Of a stretch of 64,000 bases of DNA, positions 42,425 through 61,438 are shown piece by piece. Position numbers and translations under genes: made by a program. This stretch comes from Nitrospirota bacterium (GTDB lineage: Bacteria > Nitrospirota > Nitrospiria > Nitrospirales > Nitrospiraceae): positions 186,001-250,000 of the forward strand of contig SCVN01000007.1 of the NCBI GenBank assembly GCA_004296885.1, read 5' to 3'. The notes under the pieces are model-generated. The model was not told the origin of the DNA. It saw only the letters and a list, made by a program, of their open reading frames with translations, and ran no database searches. The number at the start of each line of letters is the position of its first letter. The first letter of the stretch is position 1.

Positions 42425-43066
42425 ATGCTGACGGCCATGGGCGACGTGATGCGGCACTGTTACGCCAAAGGCTGGATCACCACCAGGGACGGCAACATCA
42501 GCCTGTGCAAAAAGGCGGGCAAGTACCTCTACATCACCCCGACCGGATTCAGAAAAACGATCGTGCACCCGGAGCAGATCGTCAAGCTGGAAATCGTCGC
42601 GGATGCGGCGACAGCGGAGCGCCGGCCGCGCGTCCTGGAGCAGCAACGGCCTTCGGGAGAACTCTGGATGCATTGGAACATCCAGTGCCATACCCCGCGC
42701 ACGAGAGCCGTGGTCCACATCCACCCGACCCACGTAGTTGCGGCCATCTATCGGGGATTCGACTTGCAGAAAATTTGCGCGGACTTCCCGGAGATTTCCC
42801 GGTACACGAAGGTCGGCCCGTCGGTCCCGCCGCTGCCGGCCCTCTCCCGCGAATTCGCCGACGCAACCGCGGACTGTCTGGGCGTGCACCAGGACGGTTC
42901 GTTGGACTATGACATCGTCGGGCAGGCCAACCACGGAGTCTGTTCCGTGGGGTCTGATCCCTGGTCGGCCTACGAGCACATCGAGCGGCTCGACCATATC
43001 TGTGAGATTGTACTGAAGAGCGGGGTGAGCCCCGGAGTCGGAATGTTCGACGCAGTCTTACGCTGA
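42425..43066 (+). CDS. Class II aldolase/adducin-family protein
   Basis: A 213-residue zinc-dependent sugar-phosphate aldolase fold. Landmarks: TTRDGNISL, YITPTGFRKT, the phosphate-binding PSGELWMHWNIQ, and the zinc-ligand motif VVHIHPTHVVAAI, with a further HGV near the C terminus (third His). Relatives include fuculose-phosphate aldolase and methylthioribulose-phosphate dehydratase; the specific reaction is unresolved. The typical catalytic Glu is present in PSGEL. AAAGAGGT precedes the ATG. Stands alone between a lipoprotein gene and an intergenic region. Confidence 0.88.
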   Translation: MLTAMGDVMRHCYAKGWITTRDGNISLCKKAGKYLYITPTGFRKTIVHPEQIVKLEIVADAATAERRPRVLEQQRPSGELWMHWNIQCHTPRTRAVVHIHPTHVVAAIYRGFDLQKICADFPEISRYTKVGPSVPPLPALSREFADATADCLGVHQDGSLDYDIVGQANHGVCSVGSDPWSAYEHIERLDHICEIVLKSGVSPGVGMFDAVLR

Positions 43067-56053: not shown

Positions 56054-57088
56054 CTACTTCGGCAGGCTCATCGCGCAGCGCAAGCCCACCGTGTCGTGGC
56101 GGTAGATGGGCGTGTCCCAGTCGCGGTTGGCGGAACGGGCGCGCAGCGCCCCGTTGGCCCAGGAACCGCCGCGGATCACTTTGTACTGGCCGGTAGCCGG
56201 CCCTTGGGGATTGTGCTCCTGCTCTTTCTTGTAACTCCCTCCGTACCAGTCGTGGGTCCACTCGGCCACGTTCCCGATCATGCCGTGCAGGCCCCAGGGA
56301 TTAGGTTCGAAGGAACCGATCGGCGAGGTCCGTGGGAAGCCGTCCGTGTACCCATGGACGATCCCACCGATCAGCTGCCGCGCCGATTCGTCGGCGATGT
56401 TCCCCACCTTCCGTTCGCGGGGCTCTTCATCGCCCCACCAGAAGAGGGTGTGGGTGCCGGCCCTCGCCGCATATTCCCACTCCGATTCGGTCGGCAACCG
56501 CTTCCCCGCCCAAAAGCAATAGGCATTGGCGTCTTCCCAGGACACGGACACGACCGGGTGCTGATCACGATGGGGCAGGATCGGCGTGTCGCCCCCCTCC
56601 GGCTGCCGCCAACTGGCGCCCTTCACCGCCACCAGCCCCCGGCCCTGCACCCAGGCCTTGGCCCAGCCCTCCCGCTCGGCGGTGGTCAGGTAGCCGGTGG
56701 CGGCGGTGAACTGGGCAAACAGACGATTGGTCACTTCATGCACATCCAGATAAAAGGCGTCGAGCGAGACCTTGTGCCGGGGCATTTCGTCTTCATACCA
56801 ACCCACGCAGGTCGCCTCATCCAGTTCCTGGTTCGTGCGGCAGTCCTGGATCACCAGATCCACCTCGGCCCTCGTACTCCCCATCCAAAAGGAACCGGCC
56901 GGCACCAGGATCATGGCGGCTCCATCCCGTCCCGTAATCTCCTGACCCGGACCCGGTGCGCCATTGGGAGACGCAGCTCCGCTCGGATGGTATTCCGCAG
57001 GACTGGGTCCGGGACACAAGACCAGGGCGCCGAGCGCCAACGCCACTCCGATTGTCAGGCCCGCGAAGGAGACCTTGCACTGTCTCAT
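56054..57088 (-). CDS. Exported formylglycine-generating-enzyme-like (SUMF1) protein
   Basis: A 344-residue protein with a signal peptide (VSFAGLTIGVALALGALVL) and an FGE-sulfatase-type C-lectin fold: AAMILVPAGSFWMGS, DEMPRHKVSLDAFYLDVHEV, NAYCFWAGKRLPTESEWEYA, GMIGNVAEWTHDWY, VIRGGSWANGALRARSANRD, GLRCAMSLPK. The pair of cysteines used by true formylglycine enzymes is not evident, so it is more likely a structural or nonsulfatase paralogue. Start set at 57088 by the signal peptide. Confidence 0.9.
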   Translation of the reverse strand: MRQCKVSFAGLTIGVALALGALVLCPGPSPAEYHPSGAASPNGAPGPGQEITGRDGAAMILVPAGSFWMGSTRAEVDLVIQDCRTNQELDEATCVGWYEDEMPRHKVSLDAFYLDVHEVTNRLFAQFTAATGYLTTAEREGWAKAWVQGRGLVAVKGASWRQPEGGDTPILPHRDQHPVVSVSWEDANAYCFWAGKRLPTESEWEYAARAGTHTLFWWGDEEPRERKVGNIADESARQLIGGIVHGYTDGFPRTSPIGSFEPNPWGLHGMIGNVAEWTHDWYGGSYKKEQEHNPQGPATGQYKVIRGGSWANGALRARSANRDWDTPIYRHDTVGLRCAMSLPK

Positions 57089-57255
57089 GCCGCACCGATC
57101 CGCTGTCTCATCGTCCGCCCCTGTGACCGCCGGCGATCGTTTGAGAGAGAGTAAAAGAATCCGACGCCGCATACAAGAGGCTGGTCTTTTGCCACTGGCC
57201 CAGGTAGGCTGATCCCGATTTTTCCACGCGACGCTCACCCGACAGGGATCGAACG

Positions 57256-58422
57256 ATGGCGGACGCCGCTTCATTCCAGTTCTCCGGACAGCGTTTCACC
57301 GTTGAATACCGTCTGAGCGGGACGGAGGCGGAAGCGCGCACGAAAGCGGCCTCGGTCTGCAACGATCAGACGGTCGAGGCGCCCGACAAGATCATTCCGG
57401 CGGGCATGATCCGCGAACAGATTCTGGGGCGGGTGGAACGGTTCACCAGCGCGGCCGGCTCATCGCTCGCCGCCATCAGCTATCCGATCGAGCTGCTCGG
57501 CCAGGACTGCGCCCAACTGCTCAACGTCCTGTTCGGCATCAGCAGCCTCAGGCCCGGCATCCGCGTGGAACGGCTGGAGATCCCCGAGGCGGCGGTGCAG
57601 GCGAAAGACTGGCCCGGGCCGCGCTTCGGCCGGAACGGGTTGCGCGACCTCGTCGGCACCCCCGTCCGTCCGTTGGTCTGCGGCGTGCTCAAACTGCTCG
57701 GCTTGTCCCCGACGGCATTGGCCGACCTGGCCTATCAGTTTGCTCTGGGCGGACTCGACATCATTAAAGACGACCAGGGCCTCGCCGACCAACCCTTTTG
57801 CCCATTCGAAGAGCGAGTGGCGCGTTGCGCCGAGGCCGTGGCCAAAGCCAATCAGGAAACCGGCCGGCACTGCCTCTATCTGGCACACGTGACCGGCCGC
57901 TGGGAGACGATGAAACAGCAAGCCTTGTACGCGAAGCGCGCCGGCGCCGGGGGCCTGCTGGTCTGCCCGGGGTTGGCCGGGTTCGATGCCCTGCGCGACC
58001 TCGCGCTGGATGACGCCATCGCGCTCCCGATCCTGAGTCACCCGGCCCTGCTCGGAAGTTTTGTCACACAGGCCGACAGTGGAATAGCCCCGACGGTCCT
58101 CTTCGGCCAGCTCCCCCGGCTGGCGGGCGCCGATGCCAGCTTGTACCCGATCTACCATGCGGGGTTTCCGGTCACGCGGGACGACTGCCGGGCCATTGCC
58201 AAGGCTTGCGGCGAATCCTGGGGCCATCTGAAGCCGATCTTCCCCACGGCCGCAGGCCGCATGGGCTTCGAGCGGGTGCTCGAGATGTGCGAGTTCTACG
58301 GGCAGGACTTGCTCTTCATTGTGGGCAGCAGCATCCAGCAGCATCGGGCCGGACTGGTCAAGGCCTGCCGGCTGTTCATGGACGAGGTCGCCCGCTCTAC
58401 CCAACAGGCTGCGCCAAAATAG
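57256..58422 (+). CDS. RuBisCO-like protein (form IV type)
   Basis: A 388-residue RuBisCO large-subunit homologue. The TIM-barrel core is recognisable: VCGVLKLLGLSPTALADLAY and GGLDIIKDDQGLADQPFCPF correspond to the regions of Lys175 and of the carbamylated Lys201/Asp203/Glu204. Lys146 and Lys171 and Asp173 are kept but Glu204 is Gln174, Lys177 is Leu, and loop 6 has no Lys (ASLYPIYHAGF). Carboxylation is therefore unlikely; other enolase/isomerase-type chemistry is expected (family knowledge). Followed after 9 bp by a radical SAM gene, likely co-transcribed. Confidence 0.88.
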   Translation: MADAASFQFSGQRFTVEYRLSGTEAEARTKAASVCNDQTVEAPDKIIPAGMIREQILGRVERFTSAAGSSLAAISYPIELLGQDCAQLLNVLFGISSLRPGIRVERLEIPEAAVQAKDWPGPRFGRNGLRDLVGTPVRPLVCGVLKLLGLSPTALADLAYQFALGGLDIIKDDQGLADQPFCPFEERVARCAEAVAKANQETGRHCLYLAHVTGRWETMKQQALYAKRAGAGGLLVCPGLAGFDALRDLALDDAIALPILSHPALLGSFVTQADSGIAPTVLFGQLPRLAGADASLYPIYHAGFPVTRDDCRAIAKACGESWGHLKPIFPTAAGRMGFERVLEMCEFYGQDLLFIVGSSIQQHRAGLVKACRLFMDEVARSTQQAAPK

Positions 58423-58431
58423 CAGGCACCG

Positions 58432-60624
58432 ATGCATTCTCCCTCACTGCTCCTCATCATCCCGCCGCTGACGCAACTCAACACCCCCTATCCGTCCACC
58501 GCGTACCTGACCGGCTTCCTCCGGTCGCGCGGCTATCGAGTCGCGCAAGCCGACGTCGGGATTGAAATGGTCCTGGCCCTTTTCTCCCGGGCCGGGCTGA
58601 CGCTGGTGTTCGACCGCATCAGCCGCGCACAGGGCAAGCTGCCGGGAGAAGCCCGTCAGATGCTGGCGCTGCGGGATGCTTACCTAAATACGATCGACGC
58701 GCTCGTCGAATTTCTGCAGGGCCGCAATCCGACCCTGGCTCCGTTGATCTGCCAAGGCCGGTTCCTGCCGCAAGGCCCCAGATTCGCAGCCGCCGGCGGA
58801 GCCGACTTGGGCTCCTCGGCTCACTCCATGGACCAGGCCAAACGATGGGCGACAATGTACTTGGAGGATCTGGCCGACCTCGTCCAGGCGACCGTGGCGC
58901 CCCAGTTTGCCTTGAGCCGTTATGCCGAGCAGGTCGGGACCTCGGCTTCCTCGTTCGAGCAAATCGCGCGGGCGCTGGCCAAGCCGCCCAGCCTGACGGA
59001 TCAGCTCATGCTGGATTCTCTGTGGCGGCATGTTGACGAGGTCCATCCAACCATCGTCGGACTCACCGTGCCCTTTCCCGGCAACCTCTATGGAGCCTTC
59101 CGGATTGCACAGGCGCTGAAAGCCGGCCGGCCCGAGATTACCATCGTCCTAGGGGGCGGCTATGCGAACACGGAACTGCGGCGCCTGGCCGATCCCCGCT
59201 GCTTCGACTATGTGGACGCCGTCACCCTGGATGACGGCGAACGTCCCTTGCTTTGCCTGCTTGAATATCTGTCGGGTGCCCGCGAGCAAGGTTTGTTGCG
59301 CCGGACGTTTCTTCGATCCGGCGACAAGGTCGTCTGGCAGGACGGAGCAGAAGAACCGGACGTGACCATGGAAGCAGTCGGCACGCCGACCTACGATGGG
59401 CTGCCGCTGGACCGATACATTTCCATCCTGGACACGCTGAACCCGATGCACCGGCTCTGGTCGGACGGGCATTGGAACAAGCTCACGGTCGCGCACGGCT
59501 GCTATTGGAAGCAATGTACCTTCTGCGATGTGGGGCTGGACTACATCGGCCGCTACGAGGCGGCGCCCAGCGCCATCCTGGCGGACCGGATCGAGGCCCT
59601 GATCGCCGAGACCGGGAAGCGTGGGTTCCACTTCGTGGACGAGGCGGCCCCGCCGGCCGGCTTGAAAGGACTGGCGCTAACACTGCTCGAACGGGGCCAA
59701 ACGATCAGTTGGTGGGGCAACATCCGCTTCGAAGAAGCCTTCACGCCGGACCTCTGCCGACTGCTCGCCGCCTCCGGCTGCATCGCCGTGAGCGCCGGGC
59801 TGGAAGCGGCCTCGGACCGACTGCTGGCCGAGATGAAAAAGGGCATCACCGTGGATCAGACCGCAAGGGTCGCCGTGGCCTTTCACGAGGCCGGCATCCT
59901 GGTCCATGCCTACCTCATGTACGGTCTGCCGGGCGAGACAGTTCAGGAAACGGTGGAGAGTCTGGAGCGGGTCCGGCAATTGTTCGCTCAGGGATTGATC
60001 CAGTCGGCCTTCTGGCACAAGTTCACGGCCACGGCGCACAGTCCGATCGGCTTGGCCCCTGCAGCCCACGGCATCCGGGTCACCGGCCCGCGCTTCGACG
60101 GTTTTGCCGAAAACGACCTGACCCATCGGGACCCCCATGGCTCTGCGCCGGACTGGCTGGGGGCCGGGCTGCGGAGGGCCACGTTGAACTTTATTGAAGG
60201 CAAGGGCCTCACGGCCAACGTGCAAAGCTGGTTCGATAAGTCGGTCGAGAAGCCGAAGGTCCGTCGCAACTGGGCCAGCCTGGCCCTGGCCGGAAGAGCA
60301 CGAGAAGATGATCCGACGGCGGAACGACGGATCGTCTGGACCGGCGGGACCCCGGCGGTGGAAACGTTACGAGGAACGAGCCGACGCGTGATTCTCCCCG
60401 GCAGGACGGACGATGCGGAGCTTCGACTGGAGGCAGAGAAGGCCGCTTGGTTAGTCGGGTTGATCCGCGAGGCCACGCCTGCCCGTAACAAGCAGGGCGA
60501 GGGCTACCCCTCGCTCAAAGACGTGCGCGCCGCCTATCCGTTGGGCGGGCCCCGCGCTTTCGACGCGCTGCTTCGCTCCGCCGCCTGGCGGCAAGCGCGA
60601 GCCATCGGGTTGTTGCTCGTCTAG
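58432..60624 (+). CDS. B12-binding-like radical SAM protein
   Basis: A 730-residue protein. The first 280 residues resemble a cobalamin-binding-type domain (LLIIPPLTQLNTPYPSTAYL, GLTVPFPGNLYGAFRIAQAL, IVLGGGYANTELRRLADPR) but no DxHxxG is seen. The radical SAM domain begins at Cys357: HGCYWKQCTFCD, a CX4CX2C cluster site, unusual against the CX3CX2C norm. Later motifs include GFHFVDEAAPP, GNIRFEEAFT, SAGLEAASDRLLAEMKKGIT and MYGLPGETVQETVESLERV. An unassigned C-terminal region of about 170 residues follows. Immediately behind the RuBisCO-like gene, so it probably works in the same pathway. Confidence 0.9.
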   Translation: MHSPSLLLIIPPLTQLNTPYPSTAYLTGFLRSRGYRVAQADVGIEMVLALFSRAGLTLVFDRISRAQGKLPGEARQMLALRDAYLNTIDALVEFLQGRNPTLAPLICQGRFLPQGPRFAAAGGADLGSSAHSMDQAKRWATMYLEDLADLVQATVAPQFALSRYAEQVGTSASSFEQIARALAKPPSLTDQLMLDSLWRHVDEVHPTIVGLTVPFPGNLYGAFRIAQALKAGRPEITIVLGGGYANTELRRLADPRCFDYVDAVTLDDGERPLLCLLEYLSGAREQGLLRRTFLRSGDKVVWQDGAEEPDVTMEAVGTPTYDGLPLDRYISILDTLNPMHRLWSDGHWNKLTVAHGCYWKQCTFCDVGLDYIGRYEAAPSAILADRIEALIAETGKRGFHFVDEAAPPAGLKGLALTLLERGQTISWWGNIRFEEAFTPDLCRLLAASGCIAVSAGLEAASDRLLAEMKKGITVDQTARVAVAFHEAGILVHAYLMYGLPGETVQETVESLERVRQLFAQGLIQSAFWHKFTATAHSPIGLAPAAHGIRVTGPRFDGFAENDLTHRDPHGSAPDWLGAGLRRATLNFIEGKGLTANVQSWFDKSVEKPKVRRNWASLALAGRAREDDPTAERRIVWTGGTPAVETLRGTSRRVILPGRTDDAELRLEAEKAAWLVGLIREATPARNKQGEGYPSLKDVRAAYPLGGPRAFDALLRSAAWRQARAIGLLLV

Positions 60625-60802: not shown

Positions 60803-61438
60803 TTACTTGTTCGGCTGCGGCGTGATGCGCAGATACGGCTTCACCGCTTTGAAGCCCTTGGGGAACAGGGTCTTGGCTTCCGCGTCGGATACGGCCGGGG
60901 TAATGATGCAGTCCTGGCCGTCCTTCCAATTCACCGGCGTCGCCACCTTGAACTTGGCGGTGAGCTGCAGCGAATCCACCACCCGCAGCAGCTCGTCGAA
61001 GTTCCGCCCGCAGGAGGCCGGATAGGTGAGCATGAGCTTGACCTTCTTGTCCGGCCCGATGACGAACACCGACCGCACGGTCATGTTGTCCATCGCGTTC
61101 GGATGGATCATGTCGTAGAGCATCGCCACTTTCTTCTCCGGGTCCGCGATCAGCGGATAGCTCACCTGGCACCCCTGCGTCTCGTTGATATCCCCGATCC
61201 AGCCCTTGTGGGACTCCAGCGGGTCCACGCTGATCGCCAGAACCTTCACGTTCCGCTTCTTGAATTCGCCCGACAGCTTGGCCATGTAGCCCAATTCGGT
61301 CGTGCAAACCGGCGTGAAATCCTTGGGGTGCGAGAACAGGATGCCCCAGCCGTCGCCCAACCACTGATGAAAATTAATGGGCCCCGCTGTCGTCTCCGCC
61401 GTAAAGTTCGGCGCCTCATCGCCCAATCGTAGTGCCAT
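60803..61438 (-). CDS. 1-Cys-type peroxiredoxin (Prx6/AhpC-TSA family)
   Basis: A 211-residue peroxidase with LRLGDEAPNFTAETTAGPI, the active-site FTPVCTTELGYMAKL (peroxidatic Cys in PVCTTE), VKVLAISVDPLESHKGWIGD, and the Prx6-type C-terminal domain (NVTVRSVFVIGPDKKVKLML, VATPVNWKDGQDCIITPAVS). It reduces hydroperoxides in the cytoplasm. AAAGGAG lies 6 nt before the ATG and a clear promoter lies upstream, so it can be expressed strongly on its own. Another, unrelated peroxiredoxin (Bcp type) is at 20.9 kb. Confidence 0.95.
   Translation of the reverse strand: MALRLGDEAPNFTAETTAGPINFHQWLGDGWGILFSHPKDFTPVCTTELGYMAKLSGEFKKRNVKVLAISVDPLESHKGWIGDINETQGCQVSYPLIADPEKKVAMLYDMIHPNAMDNMTVRSVFVIGPDKKVKLMLTYPASCGRNFDELLRVVDSLQLTAKFKVATPVNWKDGQDCIITPAVSDAEAKTLFPKGFKAVKPYLRITPQPNK

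Follow-up and report, generated by a model that had tools for sequence, protein, structure and literature searches.

A RuBisCO-like protein with a rewritten active site, and the conserved locus that it shares with a radical SAM gene, in the Nitrospirales

A 64,000-nucleotide stretch of the Nitrospirota contig SCVN01000007.1 (the window, whose positions serve as coordinates throughout) carries an intact gene for a form IV RuBisCO-like protein (RLP), followed by one for a B12-type radical SAM protein. We propose, with moderate confidence, that the RLP is a salvage enzyme for by-products of S-adenosylmethionine that acts on the product of MtnA and does so with an altered active site. The proposal rests on clade membership, on the retention of the KDD motif and of Lys and His residues, on a genome that has mtnP and mtnA but neither the cupin nor the split transketolase, and on the mtnK/mtnA/RLP operons of relatives; from these features we infer the substrate, the direction and the product of the reaction. 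The pairing of the two genes amounts to a conserved locus and falls short of demonstrating a two-enzyme system. To our knowledge, most form IV RLPs outside the MtnW, DeepYkr and OiaX groups have no assigned reaction.

Family placement and structure

A phylogeny against the form IV subclades, which an earlier reading of the letters alone (the sequence-only reading) had suggested as a check, groups the window RLP with the DeepYkr 5-methylthioribulose-1-phosphate isomerases and excludes MtnW. In the careful tree the Nitrospirales RLPs form one clade (98/96), which joins the cupin-linked DeepYkr RLPs and the transketolase-linked RLPs in a superclade that leaves the MtnW-type proteins outside (100/100); in a quick tree this superclade is set apart from OiaX and from a second plasmid RLP (96 in the Shimodaira-Hasegawa-like approximate likelihood ratio test, SH-aLRT). 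The cupin-linked RLPs, with the tested members among them, form their own clade in the careful tree (89/70), and the window RLP falls outside it. The grouping of the Nitrospirales RLPs with the transketolase-linked RLPs has an SH-aLRT value of 95 in the quick tree and is a weakly supported polytomy in the careful tree, and any branching order of the three groups is tentative.

The tested DeepYkr RLPs, R. rubrum RLP and R. palustris RLP1, are 1,3-isomerases that convert 5-methylthioribulose-1-phosphate to 1-methylthioxylulose-5-phosphate (PMC5893883). The window RLP shares with the DeepYkr group its superclade, its fold and the residues Lys146, Lys171, Asp172, Asp173 and His262, but the two are ∼35% identical, the window genome has no cupin methylsulfurylase, and five active-site residues differ (Asn to Ile95, His to Gln174, loop-6 Arg to Gly303, Gly to Arg335 and Gly to Ser358). 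Its closest relatives outside the Nitrospirales, at 40–50% identity, are the transketolase-linked RLPs of Agrobacterium sp. MA01 (locus L213), Rhizobium, Devosia, Spirochaetes and Chloroflexota; the RLP of one Nitrospirales genome, G213, also belongs here and bridges the two groups within the order. In the transketolase-linked RLPs the active site is of the ancestral type and the neighbour is a split transketolase, often with mtnK/mtnA, whereas the window RLP has none of these features. MtnW has the form IV fold and the KDD motif in common with the window RLP, but it belongs to a separate clade, retains Glu204 and is found in a different operon. Relative to carboxylating RuBisCO, the window RLP has Gln174 in place of Glu204 and Gly303 in place of the loop-6 Lys334.

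The AlphaFold2 model of the RLP has a predicted local distance difference test (pLDDT) score of 94.4. The nearest solved structure, by sequence as well as by fold, is that of an R. palustris RLP (3qfw; template modelling scores 0.86/0.95).

Active site

The residues described by the sequence-only reading are borne out by alignment: Lys146, Lys171 and Asp173 are present, Gln occupies the Glu204 position, and Gly303 stands where loop 6 of RuBisCO has its Lys. Lys146, Lys171, Asp172, Asp173 and His262 are invariant in an alignment of 41. The positions that have changed are ones that we take to be substrate contacts, by homology with RuBisCO numbering.

Comparison of 51 derived Nitrospirales rows with 40 relatives (39 at some positions) shows how far the changes extend. 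At position 95 the Asn of the relatives is replaced by Met, Thr or Ile, with Ile in the window RLP. Position 174 is Gln in 50 of the 51 derived rows and His in 39 of the 40 others; position 335 is Arg in 49/51 and Gly in 39/39; at position 358 Gly has given way to Ser (48/51). The loop-6 Arg at position 303, part of a GGRF motif in all 39 non-derived relatives, is lost in the derived rows. All of the conserved DeepYkr set N/KDDH/GGRF/GG except the KDD is changed in these rows, and the basal G213 RLP retains the old residues at the changed positions. The rewritten site may represent the same reaction, tuned, or a new substrate. Because the gene is under purifying selection (ratio of non-synonymous to synonymous substitution rates, dN/dS, 0.14–0.20 between sister species, for the RLP and radical SAM genes), the change looks functional and not a product of decay.

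Salvage genes in the Nitrospirales

In the 235 genomes of the order Nitrospirales that were surveyed (the window genome being G000), mtnP is present in 223 and mtnA in 204. The window genome has both; they lie elsewhere in the genome, the sequence-only reading having seen no mtnA or mtnK in the window. The window genome also has DXS and an ordinary transketolase, and the idea that the RLP replaces a lost DXS is ruled out by the presence of DXS in all 17 genomes checked. A search for a close cupin methylsulfurylase gave no match in the window genome and only weak matches in 3 of the 235 (E about 1e-6; best about 5e-7). No salvage gene was seen beside the RLP in the Nitrospirales loci read, except for the transketolase of G213.

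The canonical mtnB-mtnD-mtnC type occurs in 29/235 genomes as judged by MtnB, the operon itself having been read in five, and no mtnB/mtnD operon was found in the window genome. A class II aldolase gene in the window was considered as MtnB and ruled out on its score (Table 1); aldolases of its type occur in many Nitrospirales genomes. Only one of the 29 mtnBDC-type genomes, G125, has an intact RLP. In G115, which has mtnB-mtnD-mtnC, the RLP survives as a broken remnant (L257, 4880–5296), and the radical SAM gene downstream of it is intact.

Transketolase-linked operons in relatives

Among the 80 closest named loci of relatives, a split transketolase/1-deoxy-D-xylulose-5-phosphate (DXP)-synthase-like enzyme adjoins the RLP in 18, and MtnK-like and MtnA-like genes are found near it in eight each; at the Rhizobium locus L155 an NCBIfam check gave 505 bits for MtnK and 445 bits for MtnA (cut-offs 275 and 279). 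On a plasmid of Agrobacterium sp. MA01 (L213, 4686–10110) one gene run comprises a sugar ABC transporter, mtnK, mtnA, a DXS N-terminal-like gene, a transketolase C-terminal gene and the RLP, and operons of this type are also present at L155, L157, L158 and L146. To all appearance these genes encode a pathway, so far undescribed, for the catabolism of 5-methylthioribose or 5-deoxyribose. The only one of the 235 Nitrospirales genomes with the split transketolase is G213, where it immediately precedes the RLP (TK_N-TK_C-RLP); the window genome lacks it, and the other matches in the order were rejected as DXS/TK-type proteins (33–38% identity).

A metagenome-assembled genome of Lachnospiraceae carries, in one run (L161, 1617–14281), a sugar ABC transporter, mtnK, mtnA, RLP, a class II aldolase, a PduL-type phosphotransacylase, an acylating aldehyde dehydrogenase and an RnfC-like gene, with no transketolase seen in the run. 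This run may represent another way in which RLPs of this group are served downstream.

We found no description in the open-access literature of the transketolase-RLP operon, of the Nitrospirales RLP lineage, of a function for the Nitrospira RLP, or of an RLP that makes DXP from a 5-deoxy sugar.

Proposed reaction

The names MtnA and MtnK are used for the 5-methylthio and the 5-deoxy series alike (PMC10986504). The substrate of the RLP would be the MtnA product, 5-deoxy-D-ribulose-1-phosphate (from 5'-deoxyadenosine) and/or 5-methylthio-D-ribulose-1-phosphate (from 5'-methylthioadenosine), and the enzyme would carry its ketone group from C2 to C4 through proton transfers that take place at Lys146, Lys171 and Asp173 with the help of the metal. 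5-Methylthioribulose-1-phosphate would become 1-methylthioxylulose-5-phosphate, whose onward use needs the cupin that is missing here; 5-deoxyribulose-1-phosphate would give DXP directly, with nothing further needed. The radical SAM protein would at most supply 5'-deoxyadenosine. A 1-deoxy- or 1-methylthio-ketose-5-phosphate as product would suit the DXS-like transketolase that adjoins the RLP in other phyla.

A more specific version is put forward tentatively, and we consider it rather doubtful. MtnA would make 5-deoxyribulose-1-phosphate from the radical SAM by-product 5'-deoxyadenosine, and the RLP would turn it into DXP without the cupin, using the rewritten site and the new phosphate-loop Arg in the Nitrospirales and feeding the split transketolase/DXS-like enzyme in other phyla.

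Several points weigh against salvage of an MtnA product. Any preference for the 5-deoxy series is itself something that we infer. Three near-complete, RLP-bearing genomes (G191, G242 and G251) gave no mtnA match, and ∼135 genomes have neither route. The mutual exclusion of RLP and mtnBDC (raw p = 4e-4; p = 0.046 within one genus) is not significant when relatedness is allowed for, with 6 independent pairs on the radical SAM protein tree, and is a suggestive lead, not proof. The class II aldolase of the window is a candidate for ribulose-1-phosphate sugars and could compete with the RLP for substrate. Five first-shell positions that hardly vary among the tested and the transketolase-linked relatives, including those of the phosphate loop, have changed in concert, and because the Nitrospirales RLPs share this rewritten active site, their substrate may have changed.

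These last changes raise the alternative that survives best, in which the RLP is neofunctionalised: it would keep the enolising core and act on another phosphosugar or a carboxylated substrate, Arg335 replacing the loop-6 Arg, in a role specific to the Nitrospirales and untied from MtnA. The concerted changes at positions 95, 174, 303, 335 and 358 speak for it, as do the new identities kept at 174, 335 and 358 in 48–50 of the 51 rows, the old residues of G213, the lack of salvage genes beside the Nitrospirales RLPs apart from the G213 transketolase, and the three genomes that gave no mtnA match. However, the general fold and the catalytic core are unchanged, almost all genomes have mtnP and mtnA, and the neighbours point to no other substrate. 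We regard neofunctionalisation as possible, though on the unlikely side.

The locus shared with the radical SAM gene

The last base of the RLP stop codon is 58422 and the ATG of the next gene begins at 58432, leaving 9 bp between the genes; the coordinates, shared strand and gap given by the sequence-only reading were confirmed when re-read from the sequence. The radical SAM gene has an orthologue in 180 of the 235 genomes and the RLP in 77, of which 72 are apparently intact. Linkage was measured in the 57 genomes in which the two genes occur with coordinates listed for each. In 34 of these they share a strand, with the RLP upstream and no more than 3.5 kb away, and in five of the 34 the distance is at most 100 bp; the genes are on other contigs in 17, and far apart or in another order in six. 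Since 34/57 genomes, from several genera, keep this arrangement, the neighbourhood is old and far from chance, and the pairing is not confined to the window genome.

Other genes commonly intervene. An HD-GYP gene occupies the ∼1.7 kb between RLP and radical SAM gene in one large genus; in others the intervening gene is a flagellar rod gene or is beta-lactamase-like. One well-supported RLP clade is located elsewhere in the genome, away from the radical SAM gene. Each gene also often occurs alone: the radical SAM gene is present in 117 genomes that have no intact RLP, and an intact RLP in at least nine that have no radical SAM gene. Neither gene depends on the other; the radical SAM gene stands apart, is kept in more genomes and shares the locus with the RLP. 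Outside the Nitrospirales this radical SAM gene adjoins no RLP relative in the 80 closest named loci.

Table 1. Features of the window that bear on the RLP and its locus
Feature	Position	Strand	Evidence
RLP, form IV, 388 residues, intact	57256..58422	+	Pfam RuBisCO_large 95 bits; structure matches, tree
B12-type radical SAM protein, 730 residues, intact	58432..60624	+	Radical_SAM and weak B12-binding match; Nitrospirales orthologous set
RLP Lys146 (RuBisCO Lys175)	57691..57693	+	Invariant in alignment
RLP Lys171-Asp172-Asp173-Gln174 metal-site motif; KDD kept, Gln at Glu204 position	57766..57777	+	Alignment
RLP Gly303 (RuBisCO loop-6 Lys334 position)	58162..58164	+	Alignment
RLP Arg335, phosphate-1 loop (RuBisCO Gly381 position)	58258..58260	+	Alignment
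RLP Ser358, second phosphate loop (RuBisCO Gly404 position)	58327..58329	+	Alignment
Radical SAM CX4CX2C [4Fe-4S] site, Cys357-Cys362-Cys365	59500..59526	+	52/52 orthologues identical
1-Cys-type peroxiredoxin, convergent with radical SAM gene	60803..61438	-	Profile match; locus comparison
FGE-sulfatase-domain protein, divergent from RLP	56054..57274	-	19-bp overlap of both start regions
Class II aldolase, weak MtnB similarity	42425..43066	+	49 bits against cut-off of 137

The sequence-only reading had proposed that the two proteins together run a step on a sugar or methylthio compound. A methylthio- or deoxy-sugar substrate for the RLP remains the best reading, given the DeepYkr grouping and the mtnK/mtnA operons of relatives, but a single step by both proteins does not fit the distribution of the genes. 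That they take consecutive steps on one such compound would agree with the 9-bp gap, with the arrangement kept in 34 genomes and with the fact that genomes whose RLP is intact have the radical SAM gene somewhat more often (63/72) than the others do (117/163). The solitary occurrences of each gene, the unrelated genes that separate them in many genomes, the wholesale relocation of one RLP clade and the lack of adjacency outside the order all stand against a shared pathway; it is improbable, and was dropped as the principal explanation on distribution and synteny.

The radical SAM protein matches the Pfam Radical_SAM domain at 51.8 bits and the B12-binding domain at 22.6 bits, below the cut-off of 32.1. 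Its CX4CX2C site is present at residues 357–365, as the sequence-only reading stated. To call this spacing unusual was an overstatement: it is identical in all 52 orthologues read, and is found in two paralogues elsewhere in the window genome (C-YWGR-C-xF-C) and in GenD1, a B12 radical SAM methyltransferase (PMC4340712). The nearest NCBIfam models are PhpK (81 bits, cut-off 600) and rSAM_ocin_1 (79 bits, cut-off 282). The window protein resembles these methyltransferases in the order of its domains, putative B12-binding then radical SAM, and in a radical SAM core that aligns, but its long N- and C-terminal regions are not covered and the scores are far below the cut-offs. Structure prediction from 5 sequences was poor (pLDDT 57). 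Two paralogues of B12 type, which likewise have CX4CX2C and are ∼30% identical to the window protein, stand in tandem on contig 23 of the window genome (L255, 5994–9844), and such tandems are common in the Nitrospirales.

In most loci the peroxiredoxin gene is the neighbour of the radical SAM gene; in some that lack the latter it is the neighbour of the RLP, and in G217 and G334, where the radical SAM gene is missing, the RLP lies close to it. A chromosome labelled Candidatus Parvibacillus calidus (Bacteroidota; L139) bears a Nitrospira-type RLP/HD-GYP/radical SAM locus, and is probably a mislabelled or mixed assembly.

Remaining alternatives and implications

The patchy presence of the RLP, the remnant in G115, the fragments in a few other genomes and the altered active site could mean that the protein is dispensable, with no enzymatic role, and drifting after loss of its pathway. 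The low dN/dS values and the conservation of the new residues themselves (48–50 of 51 rows) argue otherwise, and we think this decidedly improbable. Least probable is an MtnW-like role, as 2,3-diketo-5-methylthiopentyl-1-phosphate enolase in canonical methionine salvage; MtnW is the top NCBIfam match by score, but its 206 bits are half of the 409 cut-off, and the role was dropped on clade and residues, the RLP lying outside the MtnW clade with full support and having Ile95 where MtnW has Lys, in a genome in which no mtnB/mtnD operon was found.

The mtnK-mtnA-split transketolase-RLP operon provides a testable substrate for a large unassigned group of RLPs across many phyla, and the Nitrospirales lineage, with five active-site positions changed together, is a natural experiment. 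If the substrate is indeed the 5-deoxy sugar, the waste of radical SAM enzymes would be joined to DXP in one oxygen-independent step, and through DXP to isoprenoid synthesis, in a group that drives nitrification.

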